From positions 81,077-145,076 of the forward strand of contig JALFIV010000033.1 of the NCBI GenBank assembly GCA_022775385.1: a DNA stretch of 64,000 nt, given 5' to 3'. Of this stretch, positions 40,746 through 59,971 are shown piece after piece. The stretch comes from Clostridiales bacterium. Its GTDB lineage: Bacteria; Bacillota; Clostridia; Oscillospirales; Butyricicoccaceae. A program made the translations under genes and the position numbers. A model generated the notes under the pieces. It did no database searches, was not told where the DNA came from, and was given only the letters and a program-made list of their open reading frames with translations. Positions within the stretch are counted from its first letter, which is position 1. Each line of letters begins with the position of its first letter.

Positions 40746-40754
40746 ACGAAGCAG

Positions 40755-40784
40755 GCACGCGGAGCGCTTCCGCGTGCTTTTTCT
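40755..40784 (+). terminator. Terminator after mutY
   Basis: Perfect stem GCACGCGGA (40755-40763) / TCCGCGTGC (40769-40777), loop GCGCT, then TTTTTCT. Confidence 0.92.
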
Positions 40785-40865
40785 CCATATACACTAGAAA
40801 AAATTCCAATCGTATGCAGAAATAACCTGCAGGACAGCAAAAGGGGAAATGGGAGGTGTCTCTGT

Positions 40866-42389
40866 ATGGAAAACCAGGAGATTGCCAAGGCGCTGGACGA
40901 ACTGCTGGACGAAATTGCGAAGGATACGGAAGAGCGGCATGACGAGGAAATCCGCCGCTGGCTGACGGCGGGAACGATGCGGATCTGGGCGGCGAACCAT
41001 CTGCTGTCGGAGGATTATCTGCGCGTTCTTCCGGTGTTCACCGGACAGGCCTGTACGGCGGCGCAGGTGATCACGGCGCTGGACTGTGCCGGAGAGCCGG
41101 GGCGGATGCTTGCGGTTCCGGCGTTCTTCCGGAAGATCGCCGCGCGCGATGCCGAACAGGGGACAAGCAGGAGCCGTGACACTGCGGAGGCGGTCGGACG
41201 GTTTCTTGTGCTGGCCGCGCTGGTCAACGGCGATTTCACGATGGAGGAAGCCGCGGCACTGCGGGAGATCACCGATCTGCTGTTTGATTACTGCGATGCA
41301 CAGGGGGTCGCCGCCGGAGCGGTTCGGGAGGATCATGTCGACAAAGTGACGCCGCTCAGCAGGACGGGATACTACCAAAATGCGCCGGAGGATGCGGAAC
41401 ACGCGGATGCGGCGGAGCCGGTCAATCAGATTCCGCCGAACTGTGCGCCTGACGGTCATCCGGATAGAGAGAATGCGCCGCCGCCGTGCTCTGTGCCGGA
41501 GCAGAATACGGAACCCGAACCGGCGGACGCATCCGTTCGAACGACCCCGCCCGCGGAGCAGACGGAAGAAACGCTGGAGAGCGTCCTGTCCGAGCTTCAC
41601 GCATTGGTCGGACTGGACAACGTCAAAAGCGATGTGCAGAGCCTGATGAACTTTATCCGGATCTGTCAGCTGCGGACACAGCGCGGCATGAAAGTTCCTG
41701 TGATTTCGTATCATCTGGTGTTCACCGGAAATCCCGGAACAGGAAAGACCACGGTGGCGCGTCTGGTCGCCAAATTGTATTATCTCATGGGGATTCTCCC
41801 ACAGGGACAGCTGGTGGAAACCGACCGGAGCGGTCTGGTGGCGGGATATCTCGGTCAGACCGCAATCAAGACGCAGAAGGTCATTCAGGAGGCGCTGGGA
41901 GGCGTTCTGTTTATCGACGAAGCGTATGCACTGGCAAACGATCCGGAGGACAGCTACGGCAAAGAGGCGATCGAGACCATTCTCAAGGCGATGGAGGATC
42001 ACCGCGGCGAACTGGTTGTCATTGTCGCCGGATATGACAATCTGATGCATCAGTTTATCGATGCCAACCCGGGACTGCGTTCGCGGTTCAATAAGTATTT
42101 TCACTTTCCGGATTACAGCGGAGCGGATCTGCTGCGTATTTTCCGGCGGTTCTGTGCGTCAAACGGATATACGCTGGCGGAGGATGCGGCGGAGCCGCTG
42201 CAGAACAAGCTGAATGAGATGTATGAAAACAGGGAGGAGCATTTCGGCAATGCGCGGGCAGTCCGCAATCTCTTTGAACACGCGATCCATCATCAGGCAG
42301 ACCGGCTCGTCATGGACAATGACATCACCGATCGGGAATTGACCGAGCTGACACGGGATGATGTTCTTGACGCCATGGAGGGGAGATAA
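40866..42389 (+). CDS. CbbX/SpoVK-type AAA+ ATPase with TerB-like N-terminal region
   Basis: 507 residues. Residues about 1-155 are helical, with a TerB-like stretch (GRFLVLAALVNGDFTMEEAA). A Pro/Glu-rich linker (about 165-230) leads to an AAA+ domain: LVGLDNVKSDVQSL, Walker A TGNPGTGKTTVARL (near 285), Walker B GGVLFIDEAYAL, sensor and arginine-finger region NPGLRSRFNKYFHFPDYS. These hexameric ATPases remodel other proteins (CbbX acts on Rubisco). The target here is unknown. The next two genes follow without gaps, so they are its likely partners. Confidence 0.85.
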   Translation: MENQEIAKALDELLDEIAKDTEERHDEEIRRWLTAGTMRIWAANHLLSEDYLRVLPVFTGQACTAAQVITALDCAGEPGRMLAVPAFFRKIAARDAEQGTSRSRDTAEAVGRFLVLAALVNGDFTMEEAAALREITDLLFDYCDAQGVAAGAVREDHVDKVTPLSRTGYYQNAPEDAEHADAAEPVNQIPPNCAPDGHPDRENAPPPCSVPEQNTEPEPADASVRTTPPAEQTEETLESVLSELHALVGLDNVKSDVQSLMNFIRICQLRTQRGMKVPVISYHLVFTGNPGTGKTTVARLVAKLYYLMGILPQGQLVETDRSGLVAGYLGQTAIKTQKVIQEALGGVLFIDEAYALANDPEDSYGKEAIETILKAMEDHRGELVVIVAGYDNLMHQFIDANPGLRSRFNKYFHFPDYSGADLLRIFRRFCASNGYTLAEDAAEPLQNKLNEMYENREEHFGNARAVRNLFEHAIHHQADRLVMDNDITDRELTELTRDDVLDAMEGR

Positions 42390-43283
42390 ATGAGCAGACA
42401 TAGTTTTACGCAGTGGCTCTGCCGGGAGACGCTCTCTGCCAAAGGAGCGCTGCTGATGCTGTATGAGCGGCGGGATCAGATGAAGTATCAGGAAGGACCG
42501 CGGCTGGAACACAGCTATATGGAACAGATCGGACCGTATGAGGAACCGGTCATCCGGGCGGAAATCGAATGTGAAATCCTGAAAAAGAAACAGCAGATGA
42601 TTCAGACTGCGATCAATCGGAGAGAGCCGGTGGATGAGGCCGCCATCGATGCGGAACTGGAGCAGATGCGTCAGCAGATGTTCCGGGAGGCAGAGGGAGA
42701 TGCGGCGCCGCAGGAATATGCCGTGCTCTCGGATGAGCAGAACGAACAGCTTCGGGAGCTGTACCACAAAATTGTCGCGGAATTTCATCCGCAGATGCAT
42801 CCCGAGCTGACACAGGCGCATCGGGAGTTGTTTCAGAAAGCGCAGGATGCATACCGGCGGCGGGATCTTTCGGCACTGCAGCTCATCTATGATATGCTGA
42901 AAAGTGCACAGGGAGATGGGCTGGGACTGCTTCTCACAGTCAGTATCGGCGCCGGCGATGAGAATGCGGAGGCATCTGCCGAGGAGTTTGACACCGACTA
43001 TTCGCTCGCCGCAGAGCTGTACGATAGCTTCGCGCCCACCGGCGAAGACGCTGTTTTCCACGGGGAGTGTGCGCGGTGCCGGGAGCTGACGGAGGAGGTC
43101 ACACGCGAGATGGATCTCATCCGCAGTGCGTTTCCGTTTACGGCGGCGGAGATGCTCGCCGATCCGGAGAAGATCCGGGCGTATAAGGAAGAACTCGCTT
43201 ACCGTCTGCGCACGGCACAGCAGGAGCGGGAAAGACGGGAGCGCGAGATCAAAGAAATGATAGAAAGTGTGGGTCAGTCATGA
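42390..43283 (+). CDS. Coiled-coil protein with degenerate J-domain-like segment
   Basis: 297 residues starting in the base after the AAA+ gene stop. Charged helices flank a segment (about residues 120-170: QLRELYHKIVAEFHPQMHPE) that looks like a J-domain, with HPQ in place of the HPD that contacts DnaK. The C-terminus is a long charged helix (RLRTAQQERERREREIKEM). Loss of HPD means it probably cannot stimulate DnaK, and may instead be an adaptor. A family name cannot be given. Confidence 0.7.
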   Translation: MSRHSFTQWLCRETLSAKGALLMLYERRDQMKYQEGPRLEHSYMEQIGPYEEPVIRAEIECEILKKKQQMIQTAINRREPVDEAAIDAELEQMRQQMFREAEGDAAPQEYAVLSDEQNEQLRELYHKIVAEFHPQMHPELTQAHRELFQKAQDAYRRRDLSALQLIYDMLKSAQGDGLGLLLTVSIGAGDENAEASAEEFDTDYSLAAELYDSFAPTGEDAVFHGECARCRELTEEVTREMDLIRSAFPFTAAEMLADPEKIRAYKEELAYRLRTAQQERERREREIKEMIESVGQS

Positions 43284-43735
43284 ATCAGCAGGAACAGCAG
43301 GCGCCGCAGTCCTTCCGCGGCAGAATGTATCAGAGAGACAGCGCTCGTCCGAAGGAAAACCGGATTCTGGTGCTCAAGACCGGAATTGCCGGACTGCAGT
43401 TTAACATCGAAAACGAGGAGGAGCGCAGAGCGCTGCAGGAGATCACACCCGGAACAGAGCTGATGCTGTTCCGCGAACCGGATAATGAGTATGATGAATG
43501 GGCGATTGCGGTTCATCTGACACAGCAGGACAAGCTTGGATTTATATCACGATTCAAAAATGAGACCATTGCCCGGCTGATGGACGCCGGAAAGAAGTTC
43601 GTGGGTGTGGTCGACGATCCGGAGACCGATCCGGAGGCGAAGGAGATTGCGGAAAAGGAACTGCGCAGGAGCCGGCGCGCACCGACGGAGAACATGGCGC
43701 TTCCGTTTTCCATCTATCTGATCGAGGAGGCGTGA
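43280..43735 (+). CDS. HIRAN-domain protein
   Basis: 151 residues overlapping the previous gene by 4 bases. The HIRAN core is clear: TPGTELMLFREPDNEYDEWA, IAVHLTQQDKLGFISRFKNE. HIRAN domains bind 3' DNA ends in the helicase HLTF and occur in bacteria alone or fused to nucleases. Here it is stand-alone, with a basic helix (EKELRRSRRAPTE) near the end. It is the third gene of the AAA+ operon. Confidence 0.85.
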   Translation: MNQQEQQAPQSFRGRMYQRDSARPKENRILVLKTGIAGLQFNIENEEERRALQEITPGTELMLFREPDNEYDEWAIAVHLTQQDKLGFISRFKNETIARLMDAGKKFVGVVDDPETDPEAKEIAEKELRRSRRAPTENMALPFSIYLIEEA

Positions 43736-43830
43736 GGACGGAATCGGGATGCCGTCCGCTGGTTCGTTACACCCAGAAACCTCACGGAAAAACCGTCTGT
43801 TTTTGCCTCAATTCATGGTGTGTTTGAGGA

Positions 43831-45264: not shown

Positions 45265-45383
<119 letters not shown>

Positions 45384-45416
45384 TTTTTCTAATGTAAATA
45401 TATTGCTATATACACC

Positions 45417-45436
45417 TTGCCATTTGTTTGCCACTT
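45417..45436. other. Left arm-type integrase sites of element 1
   Basis: TTGCCATTT (45417-45425) and TTGCCACTT (45428-45436), 11 bp apart. They match the five-fold repeat at the right end (53595-53644) and lie about 75 bp inside the core repeat, as expected for lambda-type integrase arm sites. Confidence 0.75.
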
Positions 45437-45544
45437 GAAGCCTGACATAATATATCTTTTTCACCTTTGAGATTCTACGAAAAAAACAGCAATCCGCTAT
45501 CTTGTAGCCGGTTGCTGTCCTCATTTATGTACAGAGAAGGGCGG

Positions 45545-46240
45545 TCAAATATGATCGCCCGCCTGTTCCTGTCTGATCTCACGCTTGTATTTGTAATAGC
45601 TGTTCCTGCTGATGCCCGCCAGCGTGATAACATCCGAATCATCAAGGTGTCCCTCAAAGTCCTTGCTGTGCTTCTGTATGATCTGCTTTGCGGCAATAGA
45701 TTTCTTGGTAGTGATCTTTGCACCCGCCGCGCGTCCTACCTGCTTGCCCTGTGCCTGCGCTCTGCGCACGCCCTCCGATGTTCTCATATGCAGATAGTCA
45801 ACCTCATGCTGTGCAGTCTCAAACGCCGCCTTGATCTGATTCTCTGCCAGAATCATCAAAGCGCGGTTTACACCTTCCAGAATCGCGTCTGCTACGTCTG
45901 TTCCGGTCATTGCAATTTGCGCGGTTGCCTTGAAGTTCTCTGTATTCAATGGGGCGTCCTTGATGAATACGAGATTGACGCCGCGTTCATACAGTTCTTT
46001 ATAGGTCTCAAACCCTTCGGTTGCGGTTCGTGCCATTCTCGACACTTCGTCAAATACCACGGTGTCACCCTCTCGCAGAGTTTTTTTCAGCTTATTCCAC
46101 GCTGGTCTATCCATGGTTGTTCCCGTGAAGGATTCTGTAATCACAACCGCGTCCGGATAAACAGACTTGATGTTGTATATCTGTCTTTCCAACTTCTGCT
46201 CCTTCGTGCTTACTCTCGCATATCCGAACACCCGTGCCAT
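45545..46240 (-). CDS. Serine recombinase (resolvase/invertase family)
   Basis: 231 residues. N-terminal catalytic domain with FGYARVSTKEQKLERQ (nucleophile Ser near residue 10) and VVFDEVSRMARTATEGFETY. A C-terminal helix-turn-helix follows at about 190-225 (DSDVITLAGISRNSYYKYKR). AAGGAGATAG lies upstream of ATG 46240. In a mobile element this size it would resolve multimers or invert DNA. Integration itself is better explained by the tyrosine integrase at the other end. Confidence 0.9.
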   Translation of the reverse strand: MARVFGYARVSTKEQKLERQIYNIKSVYPDAVVITESFTGTTMDRPAWNKLKKTLREGDTVVFDEVSRMARTATEGFETYKELYERGVNLVFIKDAPLNTENFKATAQIAMTGTDVADAILEGVNRALMILAENQIKAAFETAQHEVDYLHMRTSEGVRRAQAQGKQVGRAAGAKITTKKSIAAKQIIQKHSKDFEGHLDDSDVITLAGISRNSYYKYKREIRQEQAGDHI

Positions 46241-46442
46241 GCTAACCTATCTCCTTTTAGTACCAGTTTTGACGGTCGTTTATTTCTATACTTATATTCT
46301 AGCATAAAAACGCCCGTTTCGTCAACAGTTTTGGTACTATTCAAGATAGGTTTATTTTGCTACTGGGAATAATCTTGTTTGGTATCCGTTTGCACTTTAG
46401 CTATTTTAACTACTAAAGTAAATGAAGAAAAGAATCACTCCG

Positions 46443-46973
46443 TCATGCTGGAATGCTGGCGGGTCTTTCGTGCTTGTTTCTGCAAAACAGCCTTTTTCCT
46501 TTTAGATGGTTATCTCTCCACGTGCCATTGTCTGTGAACGTCCTGACGCGCTCCACCAATTCTTTCTGATTCTCAGGCGTGAACCGGTAATAGCTTACAT
46601 GAATGATCGCGCTACCTGATTCTGTCCGTGCAACCTCCCGCAACAGCTGAACCGGTGCATTCGTCACAAGATGCACGGTGAATGTTCCGCTTGTTTCCGG
46701 TTCGATGATATACAGATATTCCAGCGATTCCGAACGATTTCTGACAATGCGCATGATTGCCTGCATATATTCTACCGCGTGATCGTATGTGAATGCGCCC
46801 TTGATGAAATGACGGAAACGGGCAGACTTTCCCACAGTGAGGCAATAGTAGCTCATTCCGTCTGCAAAATCTCGTTGCAGATATCTTTCCAATTTCTCAA
46901 CCGCGCGCTTGTTGTTTTGTTTCCTAATCGGCTTGGAAGATTCAAAGCACTTCTTTGCTCTTGCGGTTTTCAC
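46443..46973 (-). CDS. Rep-like protein, diverged relative of the HUH initiator
   Basis: 176 residues from a GTG at 46973 with AGAGGAGAG 8 bases upstream; the open frame continues upstream through a tandem repeat but without a start signal. The segment YLYIIEPETSGTFTVHLVTN aligns by eye with FIRVIENKHGEGRFHIHMLL of the initiator at 48193, but the metal-binding H-x-H is reduced to V-H. It may have lost nicking activity and act as a regulator or plasmid-copy factor. The relationship is inferred from this alignment only. Confidence 0.55.
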   Translation of the reverse strand: MKTARAKKCFESSKPIRKQNNKRAVEKLERYLQRDFADGMSYYCLTVGKSARFRHFIKGAFTYDHAVEYMQAIMRIVRNRSESLEYLYIIEPETSGTFTVHLVTNAPVQLLREVARTESGSAIIHVSYYRFTPENQKELVERVRTFTDNGTWRDNHLKGKRLFCRNKHERPASIPA

Positions 46974-48192
46974 AGCTTTTCTCTCCTCTGTCTTGACTTG
47001 CGGGTTATGGTCTCCGGATTTTGGCGGGAAGGGTTTCAAATGCTGTCGCGCTTGCTTCACAACGCCCCGTGCGCGCTGTTCTGGCAGGCATGGGAACGGT
47101 ATGGCATTGTGTCGGCTTGCGCGTGTGGCTGGCTGTCGCCAGATTCTGGCGGGATAGGGAAGGGGACAGACACGGCGGCTCTGCATCCGGCAGGTGGTAC
47201 AGATAGTTCACACATAGTTTCGGTGCAAAAGAAAGCGGTTTCAAATGCTGGCGCACGCGCCTTGCAACGCCCTGTGCGCGCTGTTCGCGTTGCTATGGGA
47301 ACGATATGGCATTGCGTCGGCTTGCGCGTGTGGCTGGCTGTCGCCAGATTCTGGCGGGATAGGGAAGGGGACAGACGCGGCGGCTCTGCATCCGGCAGAC
47401 GGCATGGAATACTTTCACGGTTTTAAGCGCTAAAGTATTCGCGTAAAGAAAACACCCTCGCATTTGTCCTACGTTGCCCTGTATTGCGTGGGAACTATCG
47501 CAATACATCAGGTACGGCAAACGCACGCGCACACGTACGCACGCGCACCGGCGATGGGTTTTGGGAATATTTTGTGCACAAAGTAGGGCGTTCGGTCGTG
47601 GGGAAACGCGGCAGAAACGCCGCGCAAACAGGGGGGGATAGTTCACGGCACCCGCCCCGTGTCTGATCGGGATTGCCGCGTATTTTTTTGCGCTGAATGT
47701 GTGCCTGTTGTCCTGCCTTGCACCGATACAGTTGATTTTCGAACAAGAACATTTGTTCTTAACCTGAGTTATCTTCTGTCCCTGTTCTGCATGGTCAGTA
47801 ACGAGCGAAAGAACCTGATGGTCTGCGCGTCCACTTTGCTTCGGTTCGTTTTGCTGTCTCTGCTCATGCTAGTGTCTTGTCCCTTGGCTCTGATCTCATG
47901 CGTTGTGTCAGAACAATCATGAAGCTGTGTACAGCCGTGCAAGCCCTGCCCACTGACCAGTGACCAGATACACGCCTGCGCTCCCGTCCTGATCTGTGAC
48001 CAGCAGACCGGCAGGCGGGCGGGGTCGCGCGCGTGTGTATATTTTCCGTTCCCTACTTTTCAGTATAAGAACATTTGTACTGTCGGGCAAGATGCTTGGT
48101 GTGATTTCTCACAGCGCGTTACTAAGATATACATTATTCCTAGCCTATTACAAAGCGTTCCGCTTTGTTCCTGTCTCTGTATTTATGTAGGC
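46974..48192. other. 1.2-kb non-coding region between the two Rep-like genes, candidate origin
   Basis: No convincing gene on either strand. It holds a 205-bp-period tandem repeat (47032-47404), a GC-rich hairpin-prone stretch near 47600-47625, a perfect 16-bp palindrome AAGAACATTTGTTCTT (47745-47760) and a partial copy AAGAACATTTGT (48067-48078) inside a CAGTA/TACTG inverted repeat. This is what a rolling-circle origin with iterons could look like, next to the initiator gene. Confidence 0.45.
47032..47404. repeat. 205-bp-period tandem repeat
   Basis: Two copies, about 47032-47199 and 47237-47404, each beginning GGTTTCAAATGCTG and containing a near-identical core from ATGGCATTG through CTGGCTGTCGCCAGATTC to GGGACAGAC. 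The offset is 205 bp. The second half is almost unchanged and the first half has several differences. Confidence 0.85.
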
Positions 48193-48984
48193 TTACAGGC
48201 GCATTCTCCCGCCCGTATCCCTGTATTCTCTGTCTGTCCTGCTTGCCCGCTTTGTCCGTGATCTTTGGCTCTGCGGTTTCAAGGCATACTTACAGTATGC
48301 AAAGATGCCCCACTCATTTCTTATTTCCTCTGATTCAATGATTTCTGCGCCGACTGGCGGGATGATAGAAGCGTTATCATGTACCCATTCACCCGTGATC
48401 TCAGGGCGTACCAGATTGCGTGAACCGCTCCAACGGCGCACACCCGCCGCCGCTGTGTGCCGTTCCTTGGTCAGATAATACACGATGCCTGAGGCAAAGC
48501 GCGCGTCATCCCCGTACTTGTTCAGATATTGAATATCAATATCCGTTCCGAACTCCCACAGTGACCGGACTTCTTCAAAGTCATTGCCGCCTGTCGCGTT
48601 CAACAGCATATGAATATGAAAGCGTCCTTCGCCGTGCTTGTTCTCAATCACGCGGATAAATTTTACTTCCTGTCCGCGCCGCTTGCGTTCCGCTCTCAGC
48701 TTTCGTATAAATCGCTGGAATGCAGAAATAACACCGCGCCGGTCTGGTGGAAGATGGGCGTTATCAAACGACAGTGTGACCATGTAATCCCGTCCCGTGA
48801 AGTTTGCCGCCGCGACATATTCAAATTGCTTATTGCTCTGCTTTGCATTCAGCTTCTTTCGCGCAAGGGAAGATAGCTTCTGCTTTTCGTGCCGCTGTCG
48901 CGGCGTGTCGCTCGGTTCTGGTCGGTTGTATGTCACTACCTCAACCAGTGCGCCCGCCCGCACTGTGCGTCTGTATCGTGCCAA
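48193..48984 (-). CDS. HUH-type rolling-circle replication initiator (ORF2/G2P-like Rep)
   Basis: 263 residues from TTG 48984 with AGGAGG (48992-48997) 7 bases upstream. Motif YMVTLSFDN near residue 68, the metal-binding HUH in GEGRFHIHMLLN (near residue 125), and a later Tyr/Lys region ASGIVYYLTKERH with the probable nicking tyrosine. This is the Rep type of filamentous and micro-phages and related plasmids. It nicks the origin and primes rolling-circle copying. The tail is basic. Confidence 0.85.
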   Translation of the reverse strand: MARYRRTVRAGALVEVVTYNRPEPSDTPRQRHEKQKLSSLARKKLNAKQSNKQFEYVAAANFTGRDYMVTLSFDNAHLPPDRRGVISAFQRFIRKLRAERKRRGQEVKFIRVIENKHGEGRFHIHMLLNATGGNDFEEVRSLWEFGTDIDIQYLNKYGDDARFASGIVYYLTKERHTAAAGVRRWSGSRNLVRPEITGEWVHDNASIIPPVGAEIIESEEIRNEWGIFAYCKYALKPQSQRSRTKRASRTDREYRDTGGRMRL

Positions 48985-49053
48985 TAAAAAGCCTCCTGTT
49001 TTTCATTGCAAATGCCTACGCCCGCCGCAACCACTGCGGCGGGCGTATTTAAC

Positions 49054-49443
49054 TTATAACAGCGTCCACGTTTGAAGCTGTTTCCGTTCCGGTTCTCCTA
49101 ATAGAATGTTATATGTAGTCCACGACGATTGACGCTGCCCGAATACCTCCTGCACTGCGTCGCCTATCTCAATTGGAAGAACAAGAATTGTTTTCCCGTT
49201 CGCTCTGGCGTTTCCGCGTCTGTGATAGCCTTTGATGTACGCATAGCAGTTCTTGATACTCCTATCAAGCCGCTTGCTGTCCTGCATGTCCGCAAGCGGC
49301 TTTCCCTCAGTCTGTTCAATCCGTTCTTTTGCGATACCGTCCAGCTGATTCAAGAACTGTTCCAGCTGTGACGGTTTCATATACGGTTTGCCGGTTGTCA
49401 TATCGACATAGCCGCGCATATACAAGAAATCCTCTAATAGCAT
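49054..49443 (-). CDS. Hypothetical protein of element 1 (129 aa)
   Basis: Not recognised. Soluble, helical in the first half (SQLEQFLNQLDGIAKERIEQ), with the strand NGKTILVLPIEIGD in the second. A consensus AGGAGG site precedes ATG 49443. It is the last gene of a leftward block (50850 to 49054) that leads to the Rep gene. There is no P-loop, so it is not a phage assembly ATPase. Confidence 0.65.
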   Translation of the reverse strand: MLLEDFLYMRGYVDMTTGKPYMKPSQLEQFLNQLDGIAKERIEQTEGKPLADMQDSKRLDRSIKNCYAYIKGYHRRGNARANGKTILVLPIEIGDAVQEVFGQRQSSWTTYNILLGEPERKQLQTWTLL

Positions 49444-49464
49444 TGTTGCTGTCCTCCTGTACTG

Positions 49465-49725
49465 TCATCGGTTTGCGTCCCGATAACCCCGCAAGTACCA
49501 TGTCCAGTGCGCGTGTGTGCCGGTCTTGTCCACAAGGTCATCAAATGACTTGCCGTCTGTCATCGTCACCAGCAGGCATTTTTCGCTTGCTGGAAGCTGG
49601 AAAAGGAAGTCATTCAGCTGTTCCAGTGTCTTTGCCTGTCTGCTGTTCTTTGCGTCCCGATATCCCAATAACCACGACAGTTCATTGATACCACAGCACA
49701 CCTCAACCATATCATGTACTGTCAT
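49465..49725 (-). CDS. Hypothetical protein of element 1 (86 aa)
   Basis: Not recognised. It starts MTVHDMVEVCCGINELSWLL and has a central LLVTMTDGKSFDDLVDK segment. The repeated phrase GYRDAKN/GYRDANR appears in both halves, suggesting an internal duplication. It is soluble and lies 6 bases after the upstream gene's stop, so it is likely co-transcribed. Confidence 0.6.
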   Translation of the reverse strand: MTVHDMVEVCCGINELSWLLGYRDAKNSRQAKTLEQLNDFLFQLPASEKCLLVTMTDGKSFDDLVDKTGTHAHWTWYLRGYRDANR

Positions 49726-49731
49726 CGTCTT

Positions 49732-50019
49732 TTACCCCTTATATCCTGCCTGTGTCATCTTGTCGCCGCTGGAAACAGCCCCCGCCAAAGAGCCGCCGCC
49801 GCTGTGTGTTTTGCGCTTGACCGGCACAAACACAACCGCTTCATGTTCCAGCGTGTCAATGTCCTGCGCCATCTTCTGAACGGTTTCCCTCCATAGTGCC
49901 GCCGCGTCACCGTCGAACATTCCCGCCAGTGCCGCCAGTGCGGTATAGTGTGCGCGCAAATGGCGCGCCGCCATTCTGATTCTGATAGCCGCAGAAATCT
50001 GTCTGTTATGTACATTCAT
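49732..50019 (-). CDS. Hypothetical protein of element 1 (95 aa)
   Basis: Not recognised. Ala/Arg-rich helical N-terminal half (AAIRIRMAARHLRAHYTALA), then an acidic helix and a Gly/Ser-rich C-terminus. It overlaps the neighbour at 50006 by 14 bases, which supports translation of both as part of one operon. Confidence 0.6.
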   Translation of the reverse strand: MNVHNRQISAAIRIRMAARHLRAHYTALAALAGMFDGDAAALWRETVQKMAQDIDTLEHEAVVFVPVKRKTHSGGGSLAGAVSSGDKMTQAGYKG

Positions 50020-50275
50020 TCATATCACCTGCATAAACCTTCGATAATTTGTTGATGTCCTTCTGCATATCATATACAAGCTGGTCATACACAAGGAACG
50101 ATTCCACGAACTTAACCGCCCACAACGGCGTGTCCTGCGGCAGGTTGAACAGGTCAACGCCGCATTCGTACATATGACCACGCATCGTGTTTACGTTATT
50201 GTGCTTCAATTCAACGTCAATCAACGCCGCGTCTGTCCGTGCGAACACCGACTTATAGAAATCTTCTCTTGTCAT
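50006..50275 (-). CDS. Hypothetical protein of element 1 (89 aa)
   Basis: Not recognised. Soluble and mostly helical, with PLWAVKFVESFLVYDQLVYD near the C-terminus. It starts at ATG 50275, 10 bases after the stop of the small membrane protein. Its role is unknown. Confidence 0.6.
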   Translation of the reverse strand: MTREDFYKSVFARTDAALIDVELKHNNVNTMRGHMYECGVDLFNLPQDTPLWAVKFVESFLVYDQLVYDMQKDINKLSKVYAGDMNECT

Positions 50276-50284
50276 CGTGCGCCC

Positions 50285-50404
50285 TCACAGTCCGTATTTT
50301 GCAATGTCTTTGACCAGGAAACCGGCAAAGAATCCTGCTCCGGCACTCCCCGCAATCAGCGCGGCAAGTGCCATGGTTGTGGATATGATTTCAAAAGCAA
50401 TCAT
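50285..50404 (-). CDS. 39-aa single-pass membrane peptide
   Basis: ATG at 50404 with AAGGAG six bases upstream. The peptide is almost wholly one membrane helix (MALAALIAGSAGAGFFAGFL) with a short basic end (VKDIAKYGL). In an element with a filamentous-phage-like Rep it could be a coat-type protein, but it could equally be a holin- or toxin-like peptide. Length and Ala/Gly content are all that can be judged. Confidence 0.55.
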   Translation of the reverse strand: MIAFEIISTTMALAALIAGSAGAGFFAGFLVKDIAKYGL

Positions 50405-50595
50405 GTTTACTCCTTGCTCCGGCGGGCGTGATCTGCTATTATAAATAGTAGATAGACGCCCTTGTGTGTTTGTCGTGTGAATCCCTCTCGGTGCTTTGGT
50501 CGGCGGCTGAGAGGGCTTTTCTTTTGCCTGCGCCCGCCCCTGATCGGACAGGGAAGAAGTACGGCGGCGGGCGCGCCGCGTTGCTCCGTGCCATG

Positions 50596-50850
50596 TCATT
50601 CCTGTACCGGTCTGATCTGACCGTAGCGGTTCGGCTGTGTCATCTGCACGGGATTGGTGAGGAAGTCAAGCAGGTCATAGTAGTTAATCATCTTTCCATG
50701 ACCAACACGAATAGACGGAACAACACCGGACTTTACCAGCCCGCGCACAAAATGCAGTGTTACCCGTGTGTCCGGATCGTCATTCTTGAGCATTTCAACC
50801 GCTTCGGCTGGGTATCTCATCAAAGGAGTGCTTGCTTTTGATTCTGTCAT
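50596..50850 (-). CDS. Small helix-turn-helix/excisionase-like protein
   Basis: 84 residues with an AGGAGG site. The segment VTLHFVRGLVKSGVVPSIRV followed by GHGKMINYYDLLDFL is the winged-helix pattern of Xis/MerR-like DNA-binding proteins. It overlaps the upstream repressor gene by 4 bases. A role as excisionase or early regulator of element 1 is likely but inferred. Confidence 0.65.
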   Translation of the reverse strand: MTESKASTPLMRYPAEAVEMLKNDDPDTRVTLHFVRGLVKSGVVPSIRVGHGKMINYYDLLDFLTNPVQMTQPNRYGQIRPVQE

Positions 50851-51056
50851 GGCTGTACCTCCTGTGTGTCAATAATTTCGGTTACGTCAACGCCGATTGC
50901 TTTTGCGATTTTGCCGATAGTTGAAAGGCTTGCCCTTCCTCTTTTTAAGCAAGTGTCAACTGTCGCACGTGGTATTCCCGCTTTCATTGCTACCTCTTTC
51001 GTATTTAAGCAAGCACGGGCGCACGCTAAATCATATTTTTCCCTAACTATATTCAT
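50847..51056 (-). CDS. XRE-family regulator (Cro-like), leftward
   Basis: 69 residues from ATG 51056 (TTGGAGG six bases upstream; a TTG at 51068 is less likely). A full helix-turn-helix is visible: NTKEVAMKAGIPRATVDTCL then GRASLSTIGKIAKAIGVDV. It is divergent from the second XRE gene at 51190 across a region with repeated operator-like sequences, the standard lysogeny-type switch. Confidence 0.85.
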   Translation of the reverse strand: MNIVREKYDLACARACLNTKEVAMKAGIPRATVDTCLKRGRASLSTIGKIAKAIGVDVTEIIDTQEVQP

Positions 51057-51068
51057 ATTTTCCTCCAA

Positions 51069-51155
51069 ATAAACGCGTTTGCGATATACCTATACTCTCA
51101 TAATAAACGCATTTTCGATATATGTCAACCCCTTTATTCTGCTTGCGTTTGCGTT
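51069..51155. promoter_or_regulatory. Operator repeats between divergent XRE regulators
   Basis: ATAAACGCGTTTGCGATATA (51069-51088) recurs as ATAAACGCATTTTCGATATA (51103-51122), 34 bp apart. GCGTTTGCG appears again near 51146. The first copy holds a perfect palindrome AAACGCGTTT. The spacing of three helical turns suits cooperative binding of repressor dimers. Confidence 0.7.
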
Positions 51156-51189
51156 CATCCTATGTTTTAATAATAGAGTAGGTGAGATT

Positions 51190-51714
51190 ATGGAAAAAAA
51201 CATTCATGATATGATAAGAGAATTCTTGAAAACCGCAAATATAAGCAACCGAAAGTTTGCTAAATTTGCGGGGATTCCTGTTTCTTCTTTTCAGACTATG
51301 CTTGATAGAGAAAGTGAATTAAAGGCTTCGACATACGTTAAAATTTCAAGTGCAATGTATATAATTATGTGTCAGGCACCCGACGTTAGAACAGTTGTCA
51401 ATAATGGCATTATAATTGAAACACCAACAAAAGAGCGTGAACGGCTATTTGAAATATTTGACCTTATCACTGAGTTATCTTTTGATGCCGATGCGAATCA
51501 AAACATAAAGAACAGCGCGATAAATACTACAAAAACAGAAGAATCTATTTATAAGAACGAACCTCTGGAAAATAAAACACTTCTTGCTTTTCACTCTCTT
51601 AATGAAGAAGGACAGAAAGCGGCTGTTGACCAAATCGAACTACTGACGCAAATCCCCAAATATCAAAAACAGATAAAAAAAATCCCGCCCGAAAATGGAC
51701 AGGATGATAATTGA
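51190..51714 (+). CDS. XRE-family repressor, rightward
   Basis: 174 residues from ATG 51190. N-terminal helix-turn-helix (TANISNRKFAKFAGIPVSSF, then ELKASTYVKISSAMY). The C-terminal half is helical (LLAFHSLNEEGQKAAVDQIE), a pattern common in phage repressors without an S24 protease. It is the likely lysogeny-maintenance repressor of element 1. Confidence 0.85.
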   Translation: MEKNIHDMIREFLKTANISNRKFAKFAGIPVSSFQTMLDRESELKASTYVKISSAMYIIMCQAPDVRTVVNNGIIIETPTKERERLFEIFDLITELSFDADANQNIKNSAINTTKTEESIYKNEPLENKTLLAFHSLNEEGQKAAVDQIELLTQIPKYQKQIKKIPPENGQDDN

Positions 51715-51739
51715 CTTTCTTCTCTTGTGCGGTTATACT
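51711..51739 (+). promoter_or_regulatory. Promoter of the antitoxin-type RNA
   Basis: TTGACT (51711-51716), 17-base spacer, TATACT (51734-51739). No gene follows on this strand before the terminator at 51931. Confidence 0.8.
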
Positions 51740-51745
51740 TGAGAT

Positions 51746-51934
51746 AGAAGAAGGGCACTGCTGGTATGCTGTGCGCCCTTGGTGCAGTTTTCTAAAGAAG
51801 AAGTAACCGCTAGTTTTGCAGGCTCGGCGGTCACACAAGAACAGAAAAGAAGGGCACTGCTGACAGTTGTCCCTCACTTATTTTACTTCAAAGAAGTAAC
51901 CGCGAGCGTAGGAACTTGGCGGTTACTTCTTTTT
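51746..51934 (+). ncRNA. Candidate antisense antitoxin RNA
   Basis: About 190 bases from the promoter at 51711 to the terminator at 51891-51934. It contains two imperfect repeats: AGGGCACTGCTG at 51752 and 51851, and AAGAAGTAACCGC at 51798 and 51891. Its 3' end is complementary to the last codons and the 3' untranslated part of the holin-like toxin mRNA from the other strand. This is the txpA/RatA layout, in which the antitoxin pairs with the toxin mRNA's 3' end. Confidence 0.65.
51891..51934 (+). terminator. Terminator of the antitoxin RNA
   Basis: Perfect stem AAGAAGTAACCGC (51891-51903) / GCGGTTACTTCTT (51919-51931) followed by TTT. The right arm includes the toxin's stop codon region on the other strand. 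Confidence 0.9.
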
Positions 51935-52009
51935 ATATATCTGAACAATAAGAGATATAATGCCGATGATGACAAGCGTATATGTAAATAACGCTTCGTA
52001 TGAAACCAT
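51923..52009 (-). CDS. Holin-like type I toxin, 28 aa
   Basis: ATG at 52009-52007, stop TAA at 51925-51923. The peptide begins MVSYEALFTYTLVIIG, has one membrane helix and ends IYKKK. This matches the small 'putative holin-like toxin' family of Firmicutes (TxpA/BsrG type) in start, length and basic tail. A GGGAGGG ribosome site lies just upstream but is held in an inverted repeat with the leader (52010-52058), as in other type I toxin mRNAs. A leftward promoter TTGTAT-N17-TATTGT is at 52117-52145. Confidence 0.8.
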   Translation of the reverse strand: MVSYEALFTYTLVIIGIISLIVQIYKKK

Positions 52010-52058
52010 GGGCAACCCTCCCTTCGTCGACAGACTACGGAGGGTAAAGAAGTTGCCC
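52010..52058 (-). promoter_or_regulatory. 5'-leader hairpin sequestering the toxin ribosome binding site
   Basis: On the plus strand, GGGCAAC (52010-52016) pairs with GTTGCCC (52052-52058) and ACCCTCC (52015-52021) with GGAGGGT (52039-52045). In the leftward mRNA this buries the GGAGGG site directly before the toxin ATG. Confidence 0.7.
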
Positions 52059-52181
52059 TCCATCCGAAAGGTTAGAAGGGCGAACCGCCTACCGTTTTAC
52101 TGGCAGTGCCAACACCACAATATCATACCATTCGACAAAATACAAGCGTCTGTATCACAGAACGGAAAGGGCGGGTGAATC

Positions 52182-53582
52182 ATGGCGTCTTTCAGAAAGC
52201 GCGGCAACAGTTATGAAATCAGGGTGTCCATGGGCTATGATCTGAACAATCATCAGATTATTCGATACCGCACATGGACACCGCCCGCCGGTATGTCTGA
52301 ATCAAAAGCCGCGAAAGAAGTACAGCGTCAAGCGGTTCTGTTTGAAGAAGAATGCAAACGCGGGCGGGTTGTTTCCGGTTCAACAAAGTTTGCTGAATTC
52401 ATTCAAATCTGGTTTGATGACTATGCGTCTGTTCAGCTTCGCCCCACAACGATTCAAGGGTATCGACAACTGTTTAAGCGAATTATTCCTGCTCTTGGTC
52501 ATCTTCGGATGGATCGCATACAGCCGCACCATTTACAGGCGTTCTACAAGAACCTTGCCGAACCAGGCATTAGAGATGATGGGAAACTTCGGTTCAAATG
52601 TGATCTTGACGCAATGCGAAATGAAAAAGGATGGACACAAACGAAACTTTCTGATCTGGCGGGCGTGTCCATTACTACAATCAGACAAATAGCGGCGGGT
52701 AAGAATGTCAGCAAAGAGACTGCGGAAAAGGTTTCCGCCTGCTTTGATGCTTCTGTTGCTGATCTGTTTGAACCGCTTTCAGTTAATGCGGTTCTTTCAT
52801 CCAATTCCATCAGCCATTATCACAAGGCAATTTCTTCTGTGCTCAAAACTGCTGTTCAATGGGGATATATCACAGACAATCCATGCGACAGAATCAGCCC
52901 ACCAAAGGTTGAACGGAAAGAAGCCGCGTATCTGGATGACAAGCAGACACTGGAACTGCTTGATCTGCTGGAAACTATTCCAGATTCAAAATATGATTTC
53001 TATGTCGCTTATACCATGTTATTGTTCACTGGATTGCGCCGGTCTGAATTGCTTGGCTTGCGCTGGCATGATGTTGATTTGAATACTGGCGTTCTGTCCG
53101 TACGTCAAACTGTTAAGTATATAGAGGGAAAAGGCGTCATATTTGATGATACGAAAACCGGTTCTTCTCGTCGTAGCTTCAAAATGCCTGCTGATTTAAT
53201 CCCTCTGCTGAAGAATTATAGGGCTTGGCAGAATGCCCGCCGCCTGCGCATGGGCGACAGGTGGGAAGATAATGGTTTGCTGTTCACCAATGATTTCGGC
53301 GCACCTATGCGCCCCGATACACTGTCCAGCAACTTTCGCCGTCTGATATCCGGCAGTGGACTTCCTGACATTCACCTTCACAGTCTCAGACACACAAACG
53401 CTACGTTGCTGATCGCAAACGGCACGAACGTTCAGACGGTGGCAAAGCGTCTAGGTCATAGTACCTCTAGCACCACAACCCGAATATACGCGCACGCAAT
53501 ACAAGCGGCAGACGCCGCCGCCGCGGATGCTGTCCCGCTATTCCGTACATCACGGGAAAAAAGCAAGGGTGGGGCGGGATAG
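52182..53582 (+). CDS. Tyrosine-type integrase of element 1, with inserted XRE-like domain
   Basis: 466 residues. An arm-binding domain is at 1-55 (ASFRKRGNSYEIRVSMGYD). The core-binding domain starts near 65 and is interrupted at about 138-200 by an XRE-like helix-turn-helix (MRNEKGWTQTKLSDLAGVSI, TIRQIAAGKNVSKETAEKVS). The catalytic domain has Arg in LLFTGLRRSELLGL, HSLRHTNATLL, and GHSTSSTTTRIYAHA with the nucleophile Tyr. It lies 180 bp from the right att repeat. It should integrate the element into tRNA-Pro. The inserted domain may let it bind operator-like DNA and repress itself. Confidence 0.92.
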   Translation: MASFRKRGNSYEIRVSMGYDLNNHQIIRYRTWTPPAGMSESKAAKEVQRQAVLFEEECKRGRVVSGSTKFAEFIQIWFDDYASVQLRPTTIQGYRQLFKRIIPALGHLRMDRIQPHHLQAFYKNLAEPGIRDDGKLRFKCDLDAMRNEKGWTQTKLSDLAGVSITTIRQIAAGKNVSKETAEKVSACFDASVADLFEPLSVNAVLSSNSISHYHKAISSVLKTAVQWGYITDNPCDRISPPKVERKEAAYLDDKQTLELLDLLETIPDSKYDFYVAYTMLLFTGLRRSELLGLRWHDVDLNTGVLSVRQTVKYIEGKGVIFDDTKTGSSRRSFKMPADLIPLLKNYRAWQNARRLRMGDRWEDNGLLFTNDFGAPMRPDTLSSNFRRLISGSGLPDIHLHSLRHTNATLLIANGTNVQTVAKRLGHSTSSTTTRIYAHAIQAADAAAADAVPLFRTSREKSKGGAG

Positions 53583-53594
53583 GTCGCCCTTTGC

Positions 53595-53644
53595 TTGCCA
53601 CTTATTTGCCACTTGTTTGCCATCGTGCCACTTATTTGCCACTT
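53595..53644. other. Right arm-type integrase sites of element 1
   Basis: Five copies of TTGCCACTT or close variants at 53595, 53606, 53617 (partial), 53626 and 53636, about 10-11 bp apart (one helical turn). They start 13 bases after the integrase stop and match the two copies at the left end (45417-45436). Confidence 0.82.
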
Positions 53645-53760
53645 GCGCACTTCATTGTATATGGATTGAAATGTTCTTAAAATAAAATAAACTCTCTATA
53701 CTATGCATTGATTTTCATTATAATATTCCGTTATATCTTGAATCAAACTTATTTCTTGAT

Positions 53761-53849
53761 ACTGGGGGTCAAGAAGCCGTGGGTTCAAGTCCCGCCACTC
53801 GGACCATGTGAAAGCCTGATTTCTTCGGAAATCGGGCTTTTTTGTAACT
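53761..53849. repeat. Middle att repeat: attR of element 1 and attL of element 2
   Basis: 89-bp copy of tRNA-Pro positions from the anticodon loop to CCA plus the terminator hairpin (53812-53843). The tRNA 5' half is absent, so it cannot make a tRNA. The G at 53808 is shared with the third copy at 60154-60191 and differs from the T at the true tRNA (45342), which fits element 1 having brought the T with it. Confidence 0.9.
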
Positions 53850-53853
53850 GTTT

Positions 53854-54697
53854 TTAATTTGTGCCTTCTTTTACGACATTCTGACGACAGAATTTCCGAT
53901 TTAATTCCGCGCGAAATGCTTCTACATCCGGATGTACATAGACAGCGGCAGTGATTTTTAATATCATGATGCCCGAGTAATTTGCTGATCGTATAGATGT
54001 CAACACCCCTACGCATCAGCTGTGAGGCGTAGCTGTGCCGGAGTTCATGCGCGGTACAGCGGTATTCCTCCGGGAACGACAGGAAGAAATGATATACGCG
54101 TCTGGAAAAATGATTGGGTTCTTTGAAGCCGTCTCCGCGCGGAGCAGGGAAGACTTACAGGGATCGCTTCGGCTGACGCTGGATCAGAGCAAGCGTGTCA
54201 GGCATCAGCGGGATAGTCCGATAGCTGTTCCACTTGGGCGGTCTGACTGCAGGACGTCCGTTCTCCGGAGATACGGACCGCTGAACGTGCAGAATCGCAC
54301 GCTCCATGTCGATATCGCCCCACATCAGCCCCGGAAGCTCCCCGCGCCGCAGACCGGTCTCCAGCAGGAATACAATGGCATCGAATGTTCCGGAAGCTTC
54401 TGCTTTAATCTCGTCGATCTGCTGATCGGTAAGTGTTCTGCGCTCTTTCGGCTTTGCCTCTGAGCGCGTCTGCACATACTTGCACGGGTTTTTGTAAATT
54501 AAGTCATTGTCAATAGCCGTATCAAAGATTGCGGACAGCGTGATCCGCAGCTTCTTCAGCAGGGAGGCGGAGCAGCTGGTTTTGCCGGCGAAAAATCCCT
54601 GAATGTCTGCGGGACGGATGTCAGCCAGCTTCCTGCCGACGGTCGCTTTGTATTCGAACCGTCCGTCATTGCGCTGATGCTTCTTTTTCCGTGCCAT
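53854..54697 (-). pseudogene. Tyrosine integrase of element 2, broken
   Basis: Start ATG 54697 after AAAGGAG. The N-terminal arm domain (MARKKKHQRNDGRFEYKATV) runs straight into RKLADIRPADIQGFF, so roughly 60-100 residues of arm and linker are missing in frame. A TAA interrupts the catalytic domain near 54155 (KRSL-stop-VFPAPRGDG). Further on a one-base gain in an A run near 53957-53961 shifts the frame after LLGHHDIK; the true end (ITAAVYVHPDVEAF) continues in the next frame to 53854. HELRHSYASQL is still readable. It sits beside the middle att repeat, the expected place for this element's integrase. Confidence 0.85.
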
Positions 54698-54737
54698 AAA
54701 AACATCTCCTTTATTTACTTTTCGGGTTTGATATAGT

Positions 54738-54779
54738 AAAATAAAGGGGTAGAAAGACCGTCGAAAGTTTTCTACCCCA
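54738..54779 (-). terminator. Terminator of the zinc-ribbon membrane protein gene
   Basis: Inverted repeat GGGGTAGAAA (54746-54755) / TTTCTACCCC (54769-54778). Read leftwards it is followed by TTTATTTTAC. A second hairpin at 54782-54814 (CCCGTCTCTGGTG / CACCGGAGGCGGG) has its T run on the plus strand and would stop rightward transcription. Confidence 0.65.
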
Positions 54780-54827
54780 TGCCCGTCTCTGGTGTTGGCG
54801 CACCGGAGGCGGGATTTTTTTGTTTGA

Positions 54828-55790
54828 TTAATTCTTACCTTTTTGCTCAACAGGGAACGTGAAAGCACGTTCACCATTGTTTTTGTCTGGATCAAATCCT
54901 CCAAGCATCACATAGTTTATGTTTTTAATGCTATTGTCTGAATAGAAAATGCAATAGAGCTTATCGTTTTCAGCATCATACCATATGCCAGAAGAGTAAT
55001 CAGATGAAGTATTTCCGTACTTATCTACGCTTTCAATAGCAGATTTGTTTTCCATCCATTCCTTTACAGAAGCATAATCACCCCAGACTTCAATAACAAT
55101 TGCATTTTTGATCTTAGTATTTCCAGCAGTGAATGAATTGCGAGCTTTGACGCTCATAACAGACAAACCATTAATAGTTCCATCCAGCCGGTCATAATTA
55201 TATGGTGTGCCGAATTCGCCCTCTGCTCCTATGAGGCGCCCACGACATTCCTCATCTTCCAGAACCTCTGGATCGGAAGATTCTGTGCTAGATTTCTCTT
55301 GTGTAACCTCAACAATAGCAGTATCATCAGCAGAGGTATCTTCTGGGGGGAGCATAATAATTCCTGCACACAAAAGCACGGCAGATAGTATTACCGCAAT
55401 CCCTAGAGGTATTCTTGCTTTCGTGCGAATCATTGGATTTATTATTAATCCGCTGAGCATCATTAAGCCAGCTGACGTAGTGGAATCAAGAAGAAAAAGT
55501 ATACCTAAAAGGATAAAGAAAACTGAGACTATCCATCCAAAAATAGGAGGAATATTTTTGTGAGACTGACCTTGATAATCACTTGCAGATGAGGTGTTTG
55601 TGTGATTATTCTCGGTTGCTTTTTGAACAGTATCGCTTGCAGCCTTGATATTATGCCACATATTTTCACGATTTTGGAGTTTTCTCCCTTTCTTTATTGC
55701 TTTTTTATTGAGAGAATAACCACAATGTGGGCATATTTTTGCTTTATCTGAAATCTTGTTTCCGCATTCAATGCATTTAATCAATGCCAT
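54828..55790 (-). CDS. Zinc-ribbon membrane protein, prophage cargo of element 2
   Basis: 320 residues from ATG 55790 (AAGGAG 8 bases upstream). N-terminal zinc ribbon CIECGNKISDKAKICPHCGY, then two hydrophobic stretches at about 85-140 (IFGWIVSVFFILLGILFLLD, IPLGIAVILSAVLLCAGIIM), an acidic Ser/Thr linker and an extracellular-type beta-rich domain of about 130 residues. It resembles membrane proteins often found beside phage repressors, where superinfection exclusion is suspected. Composition is AT-rich. No specific function can be assigned. Confidence 0.75.
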   Translation of the reverse strand: MALIKCIECGNKISDKAKICPHCGYSLNKKAIKKGRKLQNRENMWHNIKAASDTVQKATENNHTNTSSASDYQGQSHKNIPPIFGWIVSVFFILLGILFLLDSTTSAGLMMLSGLIINPMIRTKARIPLGIAVILSAVLLCAGIIMLPPEDTSADDTAIVEVTQEKSSTESSDPEVLEDEECRGRLIGAEGEFGTPYNYDRLDGTINGLSVMSVKARNSFTAGNTKIKNAIVIEVWGDYASVKEWMENKSAIESVDKYGNTSSDYSSGIWYDAENDKLYCIFYSDNSIKNINYVMLGGFDPDKNNGERAFTFPVEQKGKN

Positions 55791-55848
55791 GATCAATTCT
55801 CCTTAACTTCTCTCTACAAATACTTGCGTTGCAGGAGAGATAAAAATC

Positions 55849-56469
55849 TTATTTTACCAAGCTGGTAAAAGCGACTGCCTTGCCGAGGATTCGGATATCA
55901 TTCATCCGCTCACCAAAGTATGATTTTGGTTCATATGCCGGATTCTCCGGTTTGAGCGTAATATAGTCCTCGTAGAGGTATACGCGCTTCAGAGTTGCCT
56001 CATCATCTACCAATACAGCCGCGATCTGTCCGTGCTCGACTCTCGGCTGTTGGCGGATGTACACGATATCGCCGTCATTGATACGGGCATTTATCATACT
56101 GTCACCCTTGCAACGAAGGCAAAAATCAGCATCAATGCTTTCATCCATATCAATATATTCATCAATATTTTCTTCCGCAAGAATTGATTCTCCGCAGGCA
56201 ATTGTGCCGAGCAGGGGAACTTTTTTTGTTTTTGGAAGAGGCATGATATTTGGTATTCTGAGAAAATCCGTGGATGGACGATCAAAAAAGTAATTCGGCG
56301 TTACATTCAGGGCACCGCATAACAACTCAATTGTATCTGGATCAGGGCGATTCTGATCGTTTTCCCAATTGCTAATAGAATTATGTGCAGCGCCGATCAT
56401 AGCGGCAAGCTCTTTTTGAGTTAATTTGCACGACTTGCGGGCTGAACGCAATTTAGCTCCAAATGTCAC
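55849..56469 (-). CDS. LexA-like phage repressor (XRE + S24 peptidase)
   Basis: 206 residues from GTG 56469 with AGGAGG 9 bases upstream. Helix-turn-helix at 1-60 (LTQKELAAMIGAAHNSISNW). The S24 autoprotease domain follows, with cleavage region LGTIACGESIL, catalytic Ser in CKGDSMINARINDGD and Lys in DDEATLKRVYLYED. It would keep element 2 silent and self-cleave upon RecA activation. It is divergent from a Cro-like gene across a palindromic operator array. Confidence 0.92.
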   Translation of the reverse strand: MTFGAKLRSARKSCKLTQKELAAMIGAAHNSISNWENDQNRPDPDTIELLCGALNVTPNYFFDRPSTDFLRIPNIMPLPKTKKVPLLGTIACGESILAEENIDEYIDMDESIDADFCLRCKGDSMINARINDGDIVYIRQQPRVEHGQIAAVLVDDEATLKRVYLYEDYITLKPENPAYEPKSYFGERMNDIRILGKAVAFTSLVK

Positions 56470-56512
56470 GAAGAATACACCTCCTTAGTTTGATGAGGTT
56501 AATGTATCACAA

Positions 56513-56620
56513 AATTTCGAAATTGTAAATAAATATTTCGATAATTTCGAAAATTCATATCGAAATTTCGAAAATATCGAATATTATAGTAGATAGAGTT
56601 TCGAAAATATCGAAGTTTGG
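56513..56620. promoter_or_regulatory. Operator array of element 2 (TTTCGA repeats)
   Basis: Between the divergent regulators lie at least five copies of TTTCGA or its complement, including the perfect palindrome AATTTCGAAATT (56513-56524), AATTTCGAAAA near 56533, ATCGAAATTTCGAAAATATCGAA around 56559-56581 (in parts) and TTTCGAAAATATCGAA near 56600-56615. This is dense enough to cover both promoters. Confidence 0.75.
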
Positions 56621-56630
56621 AGGTGAATAA

Positions 56631-56852
56631 ATGAACGTAGGAAAGCGGGTTTTCGAATACTTGAAGCAAAACGGCATTTCTCAGACTCACATAAGCAAGG
56701 AATCCGGAATTCCATTGCCAAAGCTAAACTTAGCTCTCAACGGAGAACGGAGACTGACTTTCGAAGAGTATGAAGAAATCTGTTGGGTATTAGGAGTATC
56801 TGTAGATCAGTTTCTTTCTCCGAGAAAACCAAATAACGAAGAACCGAGGTGA
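56631..56852 (+). CDS. Cro-like XRE protein of element 2
   Basis: 73 residues from ATG 56631 with a TTGGAGGTG site. Helix-turn-helix NGISQTHISKESGIPLPKLN followed by LTFEEYEEICWVLGVSVDQF. It is divergent from the S24 repressor and faces the remnant early region, as expected for the lytic-side regulator. Confidence 0.85.
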   Translation: MNVGKRVFEYLKQNGISQTHISKESGIPLPKLNLALNGERRLTFEEYEEICWVLGVSVDQFLSPRKPNNEEPR

Positions 56853-56857
56853 CAACC

Positions 56858-56950
56858 ATGACTATGTATTACGAGGAGACGGCGCTCGTCGAGCAGATCA
56901 AGCGCAGCGAGGAGATCGAACGGAGAAGAAAGGGGTGGGAACAGGAATGA
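56858..56950 (+). CDS. Small phage protein (30 aa)
   Basis: ATG 56858 behind a GAGGTG site, five bases after the Cro-like gene. Highly charged peptide (ALVEQIKRSEEIERRRKGWE). The stop overlaps the start of the next small gene (ATGA). Function unknown. Confidence 0.5.
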   Translation: MTMYYEETALVEQIKRSEEIERRRKGWEQE

Positions 56951-57027
56951 ATTACAAACAGGAAGACACACAGAAGATCATCAATGAGATGCGGACGGCA
57001 TCGCGCCGGACGGATTGCGAGGAATAA
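56947..57027 (+). CDS. Small phage protein (26 aa)
   Basis: ATG 56947 overlapping the previous stop, ending TAA 57025-57027. Charged peptide (MNYKQEDTQKIINEMRTASR). It may be the truncated start of a larger early gene. Unknown. Confidence 0.4.
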   Translation: MNYKQEDTQKIINEMRTASRRTDCEE

Positions 57028-57116
57028 AAATGCGCCCAGCGGGACGGACGTCCCAACTGAGCGCACGTATGAAAAAAAGACAATATTATTATATCACAGA
57101 AACAGGAGAAAGCAAC

Positions 57117-58675: not shown

Positions 58676-58732
58676 CCACATACCGCCCATCTTCGGATCG
58701 GCGGTTTTGTTTTACCAAAAAGAGGTGATACG

Positions 58733-59099: not shown

Positions 59100-59138
59100 A
59101 CAAAGAAAAAACCACTGACAAAGATTTCGCCAGATGGA

Positions 59139-59969: not shown

Positions 59970-59971
59970 CA

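Follow-up and report, generated by a model that had tools for sequence, protein, structure and literature searches.

The window analysed here, a stretch of 64,000 nucleotides from a Clostridiales bacterium, contains three adjoining genes that encode an AAA+ ATPase, a coiled-coil protein with a J-like domain and a HIRAN protein (Table 1). All three open reading frames lie on the + strand; the gap between the AAA and J genes is 0 and the J and HIRAN genes overlap by 4 bases. An initial annotation had described three abutting or overlapping genes at 40866–43735, and its coordinates are exact. The trio is presumably co-transcribed. A hairpin with a T-run ends the upstream mutY gene, and the trio is therefore probably a separate unit with its own transcription start, to which no promoter was assigned. 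This hairpin is missing from the list of a generic terminator scan; a comparable hairpin and T-run is also found 3' of mutY in genome G008.

In G008 the same gene order is found, with a glycogen-debranching enzyme (GDB), MutY and an MFS protein that are 86, 69 and 86% identical to those of the window, and no trio between them; the homology picks up again at about position 43777. No GC shift that would signal transfer was seen, with 56–59% GC in the trio vs 55–62% in the flanks. MutY was considered as a partner of the trio and rejected, as mutY is not located beside the other trios. Downstream, a tRNA-Pro (45265–45340) is followed by a recombinase gene (45545–46240, – strand) and by integrase-like and phage structural-like genes, and the region 45265–64000 is probably a mobile element or prophage that starts 1.5 kb past the trio.

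Table 1. Positions of the trio genes, their main motifs and the surrounding features in the window
Feature	Position	Strand	Basis
Accessory insert; in G008 the MFS gene directly follows mutY	40746..43776	.	Comparison with G008
Hairpin and T-run ending mutY, between upstream genes and trio	40748..40783	+	RNA fold, -21.7 kcal/mol, z -4.6
Gene 1, AAA+ ATPase of CbbX/SpoVK/EccA type, 507 aa	40866..42389	+	PF00004, AAA_lid_6 (both over the cutoff)
Helical N-terminal domain of gene 1, specific to the trio, then low-complexity linker	40866..41390	+	Conserved across trio loci
Walker A motif of gene 1, GNPGTGKTT	41727..41753	+	Direct reading; identical in 14/14 relatives checked
Gene 2, coiled-coil protein, internal J-like domain at about residues 108–172, 297 aa	42390..43283	+	J profile
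HPQ tripeptide replacing HPD in gene 2	42786..42794	+	Sequence
Gene 3, HIRAN protein, 151 aa	43280..43735	+	PF08797
N69-E-Y71-D72 of gene 3, aligned with HLTF N91-P-Y93-D94	43484..43495	+	Profile alignment

Predicted features of the three proteins

Gene 1 matches PF00004 (66 bits) and the AAA_lid_6 model (64 bits), both above the Pfam cutoff, which bears out the AAA+ call made initially. Against the NCBIfam equivalog models it scores 293 bits for SpoVK (cutoff 423), 250 for EccA (467) and 231 for CbbX (459), below each cutoff, and it is therefore a relative of these proteins and none of them proper. Its AAA core matches CbbX crystal sequences (E 3e-53 to 4e-53). The Walker B motif GGVLFIDEAY is intact in the same 14 relatives in which Walker A was checked, and a tyrosine is kept at the position aligned with pore loop 1 of CbbX, where the mutation Y114A abolishes remodelling but leaves the ATPase activity (PMC5437159). 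Judged by its sequence, gene 1 belongs to the CbbX/SpoVK/EccA family of AAA+ proteins, with which it shares the AAA core and lid, both Walker motifs and the pore-loop tyrosine. It does not reach the cutoff of any named member, it carries an extra trio-specific N-terminal domain and linker, and no Rubisco, sporulation or type VII context was seen at the trio loci.

This N-terminal domain has no Pfam match. It had been labelled TerB-like, yet TerB (PF05099) gave zero matches up to an E-value of 10 for three trio N-termini, and only in a distant relative, L025, was there a TerB score, at 17 bits below the cutoff of 24.4; the label is unproven. The AlphaFold model of the window's N-terminus (pLDDT 41) was too poor for a fold search. 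More distant versions of the domain are found in solo AAA proteins from another family of the order (f13), and none was found by its profile in viral contigs. In f13 the solo AAA genes (L105–L117) are often divergent from a gene for a zinc-ribbon and membrane-segment protein with an Ig-like domain. The IetAS system was rejected as a match, with an IteA/IetA score of 33.5 bits vs a cutoff of 510, from a match confined to the AAA core, and with no protease gene in the cassette.

Gene 2 scores 22 bits against PF00226 (DnaJ), below the cutoff of 27.8, while a profile of its 26-member family matches solved DnaJ domains with an E-value of 1.7e-6. In its AlphaFold model (pLDDT 81) long helices flank helices II–III of a J domain; a fold search with this model returned only coiled-coil matches, none below E 0.001. 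None of the five trios that we found has the HPD tripeptide (HPQ, HPQ, HPA, HPA and HPS), whereas HPD is kept in all 34 J-HIRAN pairs without an AAA+ gene that were read. The net charge of helix II, taken over the 16 residues before the motif, averages -0.2 in the trios (-1 in the window) against +3.1 in the HPD type. By these sequence criteria the trio J protein has lost both features of Hsp70 contact, the HPD and the basic face of helix II, and the aspartate is replaced by residues that differ among the trios, as is expected of a relaxed constraint. The suggestion of a degenerate J protein with HPQ is thus correct for the trios, but this state is derived within their clade, as the pairs that lack the AAA+ gene keep HPD. 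Since the trio J proteins form one clade, the loss of HPD and the gain of the AAA+ gene represent a single event and not independent replication.

In one genus (L079–L081, L086, L089, L091 and L092; all 7 genomes seen) an HPE-type J gene without HIRAN follows two ABC exporter genes. This clade, possibly sister to the trio J proteins, is also without HPD, so that loss of the motif is not specific to the gain of the AAA+ gene. The genes of ~580 aa before the HPE-type J were tried as Hsp70s and rejected, as they are the ABC exporters. A dedicated adjoining Hsp70 was likewise rejected; only the canonical, unlinked DnaK was found.

J-like proteins without HPD are known elsewhere, in Pam16 and in kinetoplastid Pam18. 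In Trypanosoma the J-like Pam18 has HSD in place of HPD, and TbPam16/18, which probably work independently of Hsp70, have been co-opted for the replication of mitochondrial DNA (PMC11349236), a precedent for the change in the trio. The trio J protein differs from them in that it is bacterial, has an unrelated coiled-coil architecture, lacks a membrane anchor and has an AAA+ gene as its partner in cis.

Gene 3 reaches 43.6 bits against PF08797 (cutoff 24.7), in agreement with its first designation as a HIRAN protein, and the profile of its family matches the human HLTF HIRAN structures (E 2e-8). The equivalents of HLTF N91, Y93 and D94 are kept, HLTF Y72 corresponds to F41, so that an aromatic residue is retained, and HLTF R71 corresponds to Q40. 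In HLTF, mutation of N91 (with N90) kills HIRAN function and Y93 stacks on DNA bases (PMC4666394, PMC11237066), while R71 is needed for binding of the 3'-OH (PMC11366124). With the N, Y, D and aromatic positions kept and the arginine replaced by Q40, DNA binding by gene 3 is plausible, although unproven. The likeness to the HIRAN proteins of the HLTF/Rad5 type, which act in fork reversal, may extend to the pairing of an ATP-driven motor with a protein that reads DNA ends. Gene 3 is, however, a stand-alone protein without an SNF2 motor or RING, and the motor of the trio is of the CbbX type.

Other genes of this HIRAN family were found without a J gene or in fused form. In L152 (genome G830) the HIRAN lies in a ~1200-aa frame, fused to a RecJ-like nuclease on one side and a RecQ-like helicase on the other (domains by reading); frames of similar length with HIRAN matches occur in G1090, G1148, G903 and G971 and are known from the matches only. 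In L031 (3451–6641) the gene of a short UvrA-like protein (937 aa) overlaps the HIRAN gene by 4 bases, without J. In L025 (4517–6793), a long-branch relative, HIRAN is followed by an AAA protein whose C-terminal extension is like the C-terminal domain of RNA polymerase alpha, again without J; the same genome (G231) additionally carries a normal J-HIRAN pair.

Another possibility is that HIRAN serves as a subunit that regulates or binds proteins, a role proposed for HipI beside HipA kinases, and that the machine is unconnected with DNA. The PADLOC matches of our HIRAN proteins are PDC-M03B models, apparently the HIRAN half of HipA-HIRAN pairs (PDC-M03), which were described as defence candidates in which HIRAN is likely an antitoxin (PMC11706625), and the loss of the R71 equivalent would fit such a role. 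The trio resembles these pairs in having a HIRAN domain in a defence-associated operon and differs in its partners, J and AAA+; no HipA kinase was recognised in the neighbourhoods examined. Based on the retained asparagine, aromatic and aspartate residues of the pocket, the fusion between RecJ and a helicase and the overlap with the uvrA-like gene, we consider a role away from DNA quite unlikely.

Distribution and genomic setting of the trio and the J-HIRAN pair

Five loci carry orthologous proteins in the order AAA-J-HIRAN: the window, G013 from the same family, G246 from another family of the order, L001 from an uncultured member of the Clostridia and L123 on an IMG/VR contig. The genes abut or overlap by a few bases; in L001 and L123 the contig ends within the AAA gene, and by reading only its C-terminus is present in L001. 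The J gene is absent from the other 11 genomes of the window's genus, one of which shows the empty site, and searches for HIRAN and for the AAA N-terminus listed no match in the genomes of the genus that they covered. The same splits appear in the AAA tree and in the J tree, with the window and L123 apart from L007 and L024, which span two families, and L001 groups with the window and L123 in the J tree. G013 and G246 group together in both trees (100/99 in each), although G013 shares the family of the window. Such shared splits across families indicate that the cassette was inherited and moved as a unit, and the trio is an accessory, horizontally moving cassette.

In an unbiased sample of 391 genomes of the class, the J profile picked out 29 strong relatives in addition to the window, and in 20 of them HIRAN lies directly downstream. 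These junctions mostly overlap by 4–16 bases, and further J-HIRAN pairs were found in other classes of the phylum. No AAA gene was found within the stretch read around the pairs of the class sample or of the other classes, and the AAA-linked HIRAN proteins form one clade (support 93/85). The conserved core is thus the J-HIRAN pair, with the AAA+ gene as an add-on in one clade. The initial annotation had treated the trio as a unit that should stay together; our survey of gene neighbourhoods does find the three genes contiguous in other genomes, with shared tree splits, but the unit that is conserved more widely is the pair.

It can be argued from this distribution that the AAA+ gene is a mere neighbour and that J-HIRAN works alone, or with DnaK despite the lost HPD. 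Most loci indeed conserve J-HIRAN without an AAA+ gene, and nearly every genome checked has a canonical DnaK. Yet the AAA gene overlaps or abuts J in every trio with a readable junction, the trees of the two share their splits, the AAA-linked HIRAN proteins are a single clade, and both Hsp70-contact features are gone from the trio J protein, all of which makes this reading very unlikely.

No J was found on plasmids or in phages, where HIRAN gave only weak matches in five Pseudomonas phage records; two relatives lie on IMG/VR contigs. On a phage-like contig (L122, 4286–5435) a start like that of a terminase small subunit runs into the C-terminal half of the J gene; a HIRAN with 68% identity to that of the window comes next, and the arrangement is possibly an integration junction. 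In one branch (L028, L030, L082–L085, L090 and L127) J-HIRAN is directly preceded by a Sel1/TPR-repeat gene, reduced to a short remnant in L082, which is perhaps a third partner in place of the AAA+ protein.

Restriction or BREX genes stand next to about ten of the 40 J-HIRAN loci, and two of these are trios. In two unrelated families a run of BrxP, BrxC, PglZ, BrxL, a small protein and a DndA-like protein lies directly upstream; the BREX-type genes precede AAA-J-HIRAN in G246 (L143/L024) and J-HIRAN in G740 (L144/L082), the latter with a Sel1-like remnant between. This arrangement resembles BREX type 4. The trio would nevertheless be an add-on and not a BREX core gene, and no BREX type 4 genes were recognised on reading the open reading frames among the window's neighbours. 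McrB-McrC stands beside J-HIRAN in two genomes, on opposite sides, and the trio of L123 is adjoined by an m5C methylase and Vsr. Other loci have an LlaJI restriction enzyme, a type I HsdR with an IrrE-type peptidase, further methylases and, by reading only, HsdS/HsdM-like genes. On a putative viral contig with a type I restriction gene (L120) a Y-family DNA polymerase (IMS) gene at 2936–4177 lies beside J-HIRAN.

When 123 neighbours were scanned with PADLOC, 74 families were matched at E<1e-12, with BrxL, PglZ, methylases and restriction enzymes among them; for 114 control neighbours the number was ten, without any restriction or BREX family. The two totals do not translate into numbers of genes, since many of the 74 models stand for a protein already matched by another, and the controls are few and unevenly spread over taxa. 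No defence genes were recognised among the immediate neighbours in the window, G013 and L001. That relatives lie beside BREX, McrBC and restriction genes speaks for a role in defence or in DNA-end biology. The damage or defence role proposed at the outset therefore gains from the relatives, while restriction or BREX neighbours are present in only two of the five trios.

One option is that the cassette is an anti-phage system of its own, with HIRAN as the sensor of phage DNA ends and a complex of the AAA+ and J proteins that blocks or destroys the proteins of the phage unaided. The accessory and mobile nature of the cassette, the two trios near BREX or a methylase and the two relatives on IMG/VR contigs would all suit such a system. 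On the other hand it encodes no effector of the nuclease, protease or toxin kind, three of the trios are found away from defence islands, and beyond shared domains there is no close match to a PADLOC system; we regard this option as unlikely.

A candidate machine for protein remodelling at DNA ends

A mechanism that fits these data, and to which we give slightly less than an even chance, is that the trio is a mobile cassette for DNA-end-directed protein remodelling in which the AAA+ protein has replaced Hsp70, in a setting of defence or DNA ends. HIRAN would dock on 3'-ended or single-stranded DNA, for example at a restriction break or a stalled fork. The J-like coiled-coil protein would serve as a scaffold that links HIRAN to the motor, and the CbbX-type AAA+ hexamer would grip a protein bound at the DNA and thread or remodel it. 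The J-HIRAN pair, which is ancestral and far commoner, would probably use the DnaK of the cell as its motor, recruited via HPD; in the trio clade this link may have been lost and a dedicated AAA+ protein may have taken over. The setting would most likely be defence, acting with restriction and BREX systems or protecting the cell from them, and the cassette could either aid these systems or repair collateral breaks. That the trio forms one functional unit that has left Hsp70 is a part of this chain that we hold with more confidence than the whole. Against it stand the HIRAN-AAA arrangement of L025 without J, the Q40 at the position of HLTF R71, the origin in a single clade, the HPE clade, the restriction or BREX neighbours in no more than two of the five trios and the small, uneven control set.

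All domains of the trio are already known. The initial annotation had called the role of the trio not described, and in the part of the literature that we searched we likewise found no paper on either the J-HIRAN pair or the trio. To our knowledge HIRAN has scarcely been studied in bacteria, and we know of no Hsp70 co-chaperone that reads DNA ends. A wider proposal, possible but doubtful, is that a modular J scaffold couples the DNA-end reader HIRAN to interchangeable motors, commonly Hsp70 and here a CbbX-type AAA+ protein, as an unrecognised class of machine that serves restriction and BREX defence. If widespread, J-HIRAN beside McrBC, BREX and restriction genes would tie chaperone action to restriction or to break repair. 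The trio amounts to a natural experiment, its J protein having apparently swapped Hsp70 for an AAA+ partner, and through it both partner switching and the function of bacterial HIRAN can be tested in laboratory strains.
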